64,000 bases of DNA from Cloacibacillus sp. GTDB lineage: Bacteria; Synergistota; Synergistia; Synergistales; Synergistaceae. The stretch lies in assembly GCA_036655895.1 (NCBI GenBank), contig JAVVPF010000001.1:1-64000 (forward strand). The letters are read 5' to 3'. Shown here in pieces: positions 1-2,291 of this stretch. How positions within the stretch are numbered: position 1 is the first letter of the stretch; each line of letters starts with the position of its first letter. A program made the position numbers and the translations under genes. Below the pieces are notes generated by a model that saw only the letters and a program-made list of their open reading frames with translations, had not been told where the DNA came from and did no database searches.

Positions 1-9
1 TGGTAAAGA

Positions 10-456
10 ATGCGAAAGATATGGCTAGGATTGATGTTAATGGGCTTAACGATAATAACATTGCTGACCGCTGGAATGGCCTCTTGGGGCGCTACAGGGA
101 AGATAGAACTGCGGCCGAAGGGGTATCAGCTCCAGAATGAGGCCTATGTTGTGCCTGTTGCCGATGGGCGCGATACGGTGGAGATGATAGAAACACAAAA
201 TGCCGAACTAGGAGCCCTCAGAAGGCATATAACTGTGCAGGACGGGATAGTTGATGCCATTAGCTCGGATATTGTGGCTCTGGAGGCCTCTGTGGCGGCT
301 GAACGTGAAGCATGGGAGTCAGGTGTTGAGAAGCTGCAGAAGGCAAACAAGAGGCTGCGCTCTCCGTGGTCGCTAGGGATATTTGGCGGGTATGACGCTG
401 TTGGCAGGGAATTTTGTATAGGTGCGGGGATTACGTATTCGTTCCTTAGGTTTTGA
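10..456 (+). CDS. Membrane-anchored coiled-coil protein, possibly prophage spanin-like
   Basis: I do not recognise a named family. The 148-residue product starts with a basic residue pair and a hydrophobic stretch (about residues 4-27) that would be a membrane anchor or signal peptide. Residues about 60-115 are rich in Glu, Ala, Leu and Lys and look like a coiled coil. The end is a short Gly/aromatic segment (about 119-148) ending in Tyr-Ser-Phe-Leu-Arg-Phe. An in-frame stop lies just upstream, so the ATG is the first possible start. It is the last gene before a tmRNA 3' fragment that looks like an attachment site, so it is probably the terminal gene of an integrated prophage or island. A membrane anchor plus coiled coil fits an inner-membrane spanin of a lysis cassette, but that role is inference from layout only. 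Confidence 0.55.
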   Translation: MRKIWLGLMLMGLTIITLLTAGMASWGATGKIELRPKGYQLQNEAYVVPVADGRDTVEMIETQNAELGALRRHITVQDGIVDAISSDIVALEASVAAEREAWESGVEKLQKANKRLRSPWSLGIFGGYDAVGREFCIGAGITYSFLRF

Positions 457-527
457 AAATGTTACTATAAAAATAGCTATAAATGGAATTCAATCTTATT
501 TTAGTTAGTAATAGCATAGGTCTATTG

Positions 528-556
528 TTGGAGTTCGATTCTCCGCGTCTCCACCA
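528..556 (+). other. attR-like site: 3' end of tmRNA (ssrA) gene
   Basis: The bases fold as a T arm (5-bp stem 529-533/541-545 around the loop TTCGATT) followed by the 3' acceptor strand CGTCTCC, discriminator A and an encoded CCA. This acceptor half would pair with a 5' end GGGGACG or GGAGACG, as in tmRNA genes. No D arm, anticodon arm, mRNA-like region or 5' acceptor strand is found upstream; that sequence is the foreign-looking 148-codon gene and its AT-rich tail. The simplest reading is that an element integrated at the 3' end of ssrA and displaced this fragment, with the intact tmRNA gene lying beyond the left edge. The intrinsic terminator directly downstream is what would be left from the original gene. 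Confidence 0.65.
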
Positions 557-588
557 GACTTTATATCGAGCGCAGGCTCGTTGACATA

Positions 589-616
589 TTCCCCTCGTAA
601 GAGGGGAATTTTTATT
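589..616 (+). terminator. Intrinsic terminator (original ssrA terminator)
   Basis: Perfect 8-bp stem TTCCCCTC/GAGGGGAA with a GTAA tetraloop, followed by TTTTTATT. It lies 33 bases after the CCA end of the tmRNA fragment, so it is best read as the tmRNA gene's own terminator, left on the chromosomal side of the attachment site. Confidence 0.8.
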
Positions 617-752: not shown

Positions 753-2291
753 ATGAAGAAAGAGAATAAAATATTGATAATCGACTGCGGATCGCAGTAT
801 ACGCAGCTTATTGCCCGCCGAGTGCGCGAGCTTGGCGTTTATAGTGAGATACTTTTTTGGGACTCGCCCGCTGAAAAGCTCATGGAGGCGGCTCCGTCTG
901 GGATAATAATTTCCGGCGGCCCGCGCAGCGTGCTTGACGCCGACGCTCCGTGCGTGCCGATGGAACTGTTTGAGACGGGCGTTCCTGTGCTTGGCATCTG
1001 CTACGGTATGCAGCTGCTCGCCCATCAGTTTGGAGGCGCGGTCGAACGCGGCGAGTCCGCGGAATACGGGCGCGCCGAGGTGCTTGTCGACAAGGGTGCG
1101 CTCTTTGGCCGCATAAAAGACGAGAAGGCGCTTCAGGTGTGGATGAGCCACTGGGACGAAGTGAAATCGCTTCCTGCCGGCTTTAAGGTGACGGCGCGCA
1201 GTGAAAGCGGAGCTATGGCCGGTTTTGAATCTCCCGATGGCAAGGTCTTTGCCTTGCAGTTTCATCCAGAGGTCGCGCACACGCCGAAGGGACAGGATAT
1301 ACTTGCCGCGTTTGTATTTGATATATGCGGATGTGTGGCCGACTGGACGCTTGGCAGCGAATGGATAGAGCGCGAAATAGAAAAGATACGTTCAAAGGTC
1401 GGAAATGGGACTGTCATCTGCGGGCTCTCCGGCGGCGTCGATTCAACCGTGTCGGCCGTCATTACGCAGAGGGCGGTAGGACCTCAGCTTCACTGCATTT
1501 TCGTTGATCACGGGATGCTGCGCAAGGACGAGGGAAAACAGGTGATGGAGACCTACCGTTCGCTCAATCTTAATGTACATTATGTTGACGCCGCGGATAA
1601 ATTTCTTACGGCCCTTGACGGCGTCACGGAACCGGAACGCAAGCGCAAGATAATCGGAGAACTCTTTATCAGGGTCTTTGAAGAGGAGGCGCGCCGTCTT
1701 GGCGGCTCCGACTGGCTGCTGCAGGGTACCATCTATCCGGACGTCGTTGAAAGCGGACACGGCGGCGGCGGCGTCATAAAGAGCCATCACAACGTGGGCG
1801 GACTTCCCGACGATATGAAGATGGGGCTGCTTGAACCGCTGCGCGACCTTTTTAAGGACGAGGTGCGCCGCGTTGGGCGTACGCTCGGCATCGCGCCGCA
1901 TTTTCTCGGACGCCATCCCTTCCCCGGCCCCGGACTTGCAGTCCGCTGCCTCGGCGAGCTGAAAAAAGAACGCCTTGACGTCCTTCGTGAGGCGGACGCC
2001 ATCTTTATTGAAGAGATACGCAAAGCTGGCCTCTACGACGATATATGGCAGGCCTTCTGCGCGCTGCTTCCCGTGCGCAGCGTAGGCGTCGTGGGCGACG
2101 TGCGCACCTACGGCGAAACGATAGCGCTGCGCGCCGTATCGTCGCTTGACGCGATGACCGCGGAATGGTCGCGGATGCCTTATGAACTGCTCGACACCGT
2201 TTCGCGCAGGATCTGCAACGAGGTGCCGCAGGTCAACAGAGTGGTGCTCGACGTTACGTCAAAACCGCCGGCAACTATTGAATGGGAATGA
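753..2291 (+). CDS. guaA: GMP synthase (glutamine-hydrolysing)
   Basis: Converts XMP to GMP using ATP and glutamine, the last step of de novo guanine nucleotide synthesis, in the cytoplasm. The 512 residues match the usual length and order. The N-terminal class I glutamine amidotransferase has nucleophile Cys83 in GICYGMQ and the partner pair His171/Glu173 in FHPE. The ATP-pyrophosphatase domain has the P-loop SGGVDS at 226-231. A C-terminal dimerisation domain contains the GRHPFPGPGL motif and ends with KPPATIEWE, the typical GuaA C-terminus. It is the first chromosomal gene after the presumed attachment site and is not obviously in an operon with the next gene (30-base gap). The leader shows no recognisable purine riboswitch. 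Confidence 0.97.
   Translation: MKKENKILIIDCGSQYTQLIARRVRELGVYSEILFWDSPAEKLMEAAPSGIIISGGPRSVLDADAPCVPMELFETGVPVLGICYGMQLLAHQFGGAVERGESAEYGRAEVLVDKGALFGRIKDEKALQVWMSHWDEVKSLPAGFKVTARSESGAMAGFESPDGKVFALQFHPEVAHTPKGQDILAAFVFDICGCVADWTLGSEWIEREIEKIRSKVGNGTVICGLSGGVDSTVSAVITQRAVGPQLHCIFVDHGMLRKDEGKQVMETYRSLNLNVHYVDAADKFLTALDGVTEPERKRKIIGELFIRVFEEEARRLGGSDWLLQGTIYPDVVESGHGGGGVIKSHHNVGGLPDDMKMGLLEPLRDLFKDEVRRVGRTLGIAPHFLGRHPFPGPGLAVRCLGELKKERLDVLREADAIFIEEIRKAGLYDDIWQAFCALLPVRSVGVVGDVRTYGETIALRAVSSLDAMTAEWSRMPYELLDTVSRRICNEVPQVNRVVLDVTSKPPATIEWE

Follow-up and report, generated by a model that had tools for sequence, protein, structure and literature searches.

A temperate podovirus-type prophage very probably ends at a displaced tmRNA 3' end beside guaA in a Cloacibacillus genome

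The window (the whole stretch analysed, 64,000 nucleotides) comprises positions 1-64000 of contig C1 (223 kb) in the 2.9-Mb draft genome of Cloacibacillus sp. (G000), which is distributed over 160 contigs. The features at its left end are collected in Table 1. No tRNA or tmRNA gene was called in the window by ARAGORN, and nothing in it, tmRNA included, matched Rfam at the gathering score (curated thresholds). A genome-wide search with RF00023 gave a weak match at C1:426-556 (15.9 bits). The 27 bases at the end of this match are identical to the last 27 bases of a complete ssrA gene on another contig (C2:112336-112689; 100%, 27/27, window DNA against the genome), while the chance expectation for a match of this length in a genome of this size is ~3e-10. 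The identity between C1 and C2 ends on either side of this 27-base core, and the genome contains nothing beyond a single complete ssrA and a single displaced copy of the 27 bp. The original prediction, that the window holds the T arm, 3' acceptor strand and CCA of ssrA, thus agrees with the exact match; the expected common end of about 28 bases was found, with a length of 27. A tRNA origin of the fragment was considered and rejected in view of the exact ssrA match.

Table 1. Features at the left end of the window (window coordinates).
Feature	Position	Strand	Evidence
Rz-like lysis gene, 3' end (45 residues + stop)	3..140	+	overlaps ORF 10-456 in another frame; G015 homologue
148-aa protein, last prophage gene, probably lysis-related	10..456	+	context of G015 homologue; alignment
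attR, displaced ssrA 3' end (T arm, acceptor strand, CCA)	530..556	+	27/27 vs C2 ssrA
Intrinsic terminator, chromosome side, probably the original ssrA terminator	588..614	+	terminator scan, fold
guaA-like gene, first on the chromosome to the right of the element	753..2291	+	ORF list; homologue 516 bp behind G028 ssrA

The good terminator that had been noted behind the fragment was recovered by the terminator scan as a stem of 9 pairs followed by a T tail (588-609). Its fold has an energy of -15.5 kcal/mol (z -5.0), and none of 200 shuffled sequences folded equally well. The ORF that starts at 753 is guaA-like to judge from its sequence, not by a family search. Because positions 557 to ~671 gave no alignment with other genera, we infer rather than observe that they represent the original downstream region of ssrA.

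The 148-residue product of ORF 10-456 has, according to the alignment, a hydrophobic N-terminal segment, a charged middle and a conserved C-terminus. It belongs to no Pfam or PHROG family (only sub-threshold Pfam matches were obtained), and 8 of the 52 genomes of the bacterial family, G000 counted, carry related copies. No close relatives of it were confirmed in viral contigs. The ORF is 61% identical over its whole length to a homologue in the second of two elements described below for the related genome G015. The gene that ends at position 140 shares 32/43 residues (74%) with the G015 prophage gene overlapping this homologue. Both homologues overlap in G015 too, and they are located just behind small membrane protein genes and the genes of an SLT transglycosylase and an M15 peptidase. 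As these homologues lie in a lysis cassette, ORF 10-456 is probably a lysis-cassette gene as well. Its product, a small secreted or membrane protein, is possibly spanin-like: of the traits of an Rz/Rz1-type spanin pair, the overlap and the lysis context are present by homology to G015. The N-terminal segment contains no cysteine in the alignment and hence no lipobox, so that a lipoprotein reading of the 148-aa protein is unsupported. An endolysin gene was not found near C36 (a contig discussed below) or C1; the sole M15-type match in the genome is weak (36%) and lies on C8.

The ssrA gene on C2 is the only complete one in the genome and encodes the tag VEDNYALAA. Behind it there is a terminator-like hairpin (-15.6 kcal/mol), and a gene for a tyrosine integrase of 393 aa starts 190 bp behind ssrA on the same strand. 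Both items that the original prediction proposed to look for, a full ssrA with the same ending and an adjoining integrase gene, are therefore present. The integrase consists of arm-binding, central and catalytic domains (Arm-DNA-bind_3, Phage_int_M and Phage_integrase; PF13356, PF22022 and PF00589) and matches a PHROG integrase with E 5e-53. No close relatives of it were confirmed in the viral contigs searched, and one scan against genome contigs gave only 5 distant relatives (21-24% identity). C2 stops 10.2 kb past ssrA, amid prophage-like genes, among them those for three HTH regulators and for an FRG-domain protein; others are small and without known function.

Two proteins of this contig end deserve separate mention. 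The FRG-domain protein (L013:1379-2302, minus strand) strongly matches the PADLOC candidate defence model PDC-S15 (E 7e-87). A 261-aa protein encoded near the integrase (G000:C2:117838-118623, L013:2938-3723, minus strand) appears by eye to have N-terminal membrane segments and a coiled middle, and its C-terminal domain resembles part of a tail fibre (phrog_2712, E 5e-6; 36% over 59 residues of the C36 tail fibre). Near full-length matches to it among the 52 genomes are limited to G000 and the G015 ssrA element, and no relatives were confirmed in viral contigs. It is possibly a candidate superinfection-exclusion protein expressed by the lysogen.

Comparison with related genomes defines both the empty and the occupied state of the site. 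In G028, a one-contig genome of another genus of the same family, the guaA ATG follows ssrA at 516 bp with nothing between them; the element-free arrangement suggested for comparison thus exists. In the one-contig genome G015 the distance between ssrA and guaA is ~15.7 kb and an element lies between them, bounded by a 55-bp direct repeat into which the last 12 ssrA bases and the ssrA terminator fall. It carries terminase genes and encodes an integrase 76% identical to that of C2, a methyltransferase, Vsr and a restriction/TIR-like protein. Part of this cargo (L074:3494-7042) consists of a cytosine methyltransferase, a restriction-like protein with a match to spbK, and Vsr. The right end of the element aligns with ~100 bp of the window just before the core (430-530), and none of 500 Markov-shuffled sequences did equally well. 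In addition to the site and the integrase, the G015 element shares its terminase with our genome, where it has a single match, on contig C36 (about 73-76%); it differs in that its terminase is split and that none of the head and tail genes searched for was matched in it.

C36 (27,554 bp), read in reverse, encodes a primase/helicase, a regulator, the small and large terminase subunits, a portal protein, a protease and the major head protein, as well as a pair each of tail-tube and internal virion proteins, a protein of 2467 aa and a tail fibre. It is most likely the middle of the prophage, between the C2 end and C1. The phage structural genes are thus located on C36, and the linkage of C36 with C2 and C1 is by synteny only: no overlap longer than 13 bp was found among the ends of the three contigs, and neither gap is spanned by any contig. 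The summed length of the C2 part, C36 and C1:1-556 is ~38.3 kb plus unsequenced gaps. The order of genes is supported by the second prophage of G015, where int, HTH, primase, terminase, portal, head, tail and the ORF-10 homologue follow each other, collinear from int to lysis with the proposed order C2-C36-C1. Unlike our element, this prophage adjoins tRNA-Ser and has more phage genes after the ORF-10 homologue, whereas in the window ORF 10-456 is the last gene before the core, a difference that speaks against a plain copy of the G015 layout. The G015 lysis cassette is located inside the tail region and not at the element end, so module order varies between relatives. A search to the right of this prophage for exact repeats of the tRNA-Ser end gave nothing above 12 bp, so the attR of the prophage is unplaced. 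With another terminase relative (L139), collinearity runs from the primase to the tail genes; its available stretch stops before the lysis region. Among known phages, the element resembles temperate podoviruses of the phiV10/Tyrion type in a 776-aa tail protein (~41% identical over 80% of its length) and in its portal, head and tail-tube families, which we take to be of podovirus morphotype. The terminase differs in being closer to those of other phages, with Phage C72C1 as the best match (40.5%). The 2467-aa protein of the virion region (L094:1705-9108, minus strand) matches the large polyvalent protein domains LPD3 and LPD22 (the latter just under the cut-off) as well as phrog_9880.

Taken together, window positions 1-556 very probably (about 0.92) represent the right (attR) end of a prophage, temperate and of podovirus type, that is inserted at the 3' terminus of ssrA. 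The two cores, the intact ssrA with its adjoining integrase, and the phage genes on the C2 end and C36 are accompanied by one relative with an empty site and another one with the same architecture, and judged by sequence all marks of integration at a tmRNA gene are present. Evidence on the other side consists of the unspanned gaps between contigs whose ends overlap by no more than 13 bp, the failure to find an endolysin gene near C36 or C1, and the lack of alignment of positions 557 to ~671 with other genera. The unseen prophage or island predicted immediately to the left is supported by the C2 ssrA and integrase and by the empty G028 and occupied G015 sites. Since the window starts at base 1 of C1, "left" must mean other contigs, namely the right end of C2 and probably C36, whose linkage to C1 is proposed from synteny. 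Elements with tyrosine integrases that act at tRNA and tmRNA genes (PMC4383910, PMC3146451) bring their own copy of the gene 3' end, so that after integration the gene is complete at one end and a displaced piece lies at the other. In our case the phage integrase, encoded at the far end, would recombine the 27-base attP core with its identical counterpart in the tmRNA gene. At attL this would keep ssrA whole, directly followed on the element side by a terminator, and at attR, before guaA, it would leave the displaced copy of the 3' end. The contig order would be C2 right end, C36 reversed, C1. The action of the integrase on the 27-base core is likewise presumed, and the element may still be able to excise. 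One prophage end is thereby fixed, and the prophage explains why the contigs C1 and C2 end where they do, one on each side of it.

It is possible in principle that the 27-bp copy comes from a second or older element, or from a tandem array in the same site, and that the C2 element and C36 do not end at C1. The contigs are indeed unjoined, and the position of the G015 lysis cassette within the tail region means that module order differs among relatives. However, ORF-10 type genes belong to the same prophage family, the genome has only one terminase of the C36 type, and a tandem array would leave more copies than the one complete ssrA and the single displaced core observed. We therefore consider this origin improbable. 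Still less probable is an artefact of assembly, or the fusion of a foreign contig to guaA: the draft does comprise 160 contigs, but C1 is 223 kb long, guaA is next to ssrA in both G028 and G015, and the same type of element is found in the one-contig genome G015.

Prophages inserted at the end of ssrA are an ordinary and well understood kind of arrangement, and no new mechanism emerges from this one. Islands and prophages in tRNA and tmRNA genes are the subject of the Islander database (PMC4383910). Such elements have, like ours, a tyrosine integrase, a target gene restored at one end and a 3' fragment displaced at the other; the mechanism is the same and the host lineage different. The account of ssrA-specific islands of Dehalococcoides (PMC3146451) similarly describes a single ssrA reused as integration site across related genomes; those islands carry reductive dehalogenases, whereas the present element is a prophage with virion genes. 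No literature was found that combines Synergistaceae, prophage and tmRNA, and a search on Cloacibacillus prophages yielded neither term in any title or abstract.

In this bacterial family ssrA has served repeatedly as an integration site. Both ssrA and the integrase were searched in 36 family genomes, 28 of which have ssrA above the family cut-off. An integrase homologue lies within ~310 bp behind ssrA in 7/28 (G000, G015, G019, G023, G025, G029 and G032; partial in G029), which is a lower bound because only homologues of the C2 integrase at E 1e-20 or better were seen. Such homologues occur in 23/52 genomes, mostly away from ssrA. The available DNA downstream of ssrA in G025, G032 and G023 contained no attR repeat of more than 14 bp.

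The T arm of both ssrA copies in G000 reads GGAG-loop-CTCC, and that of G028, G015, G020, G013 and G025 reads GGGG-loop-CCCC. On the basis of this difference from five relatives one may propose that the phage core rewrote the T arm of the host tmRNA, donating a compensated tmRNA allele together with its own terminator; we regard this as rather unlikely. In G024 a second ssrA-like 3' end is found on another contig (L082:3304, G024:C1), with 40 upstream bases that are ssrA-like but diverged; it may be a relic or a second tmRNA-like piece.
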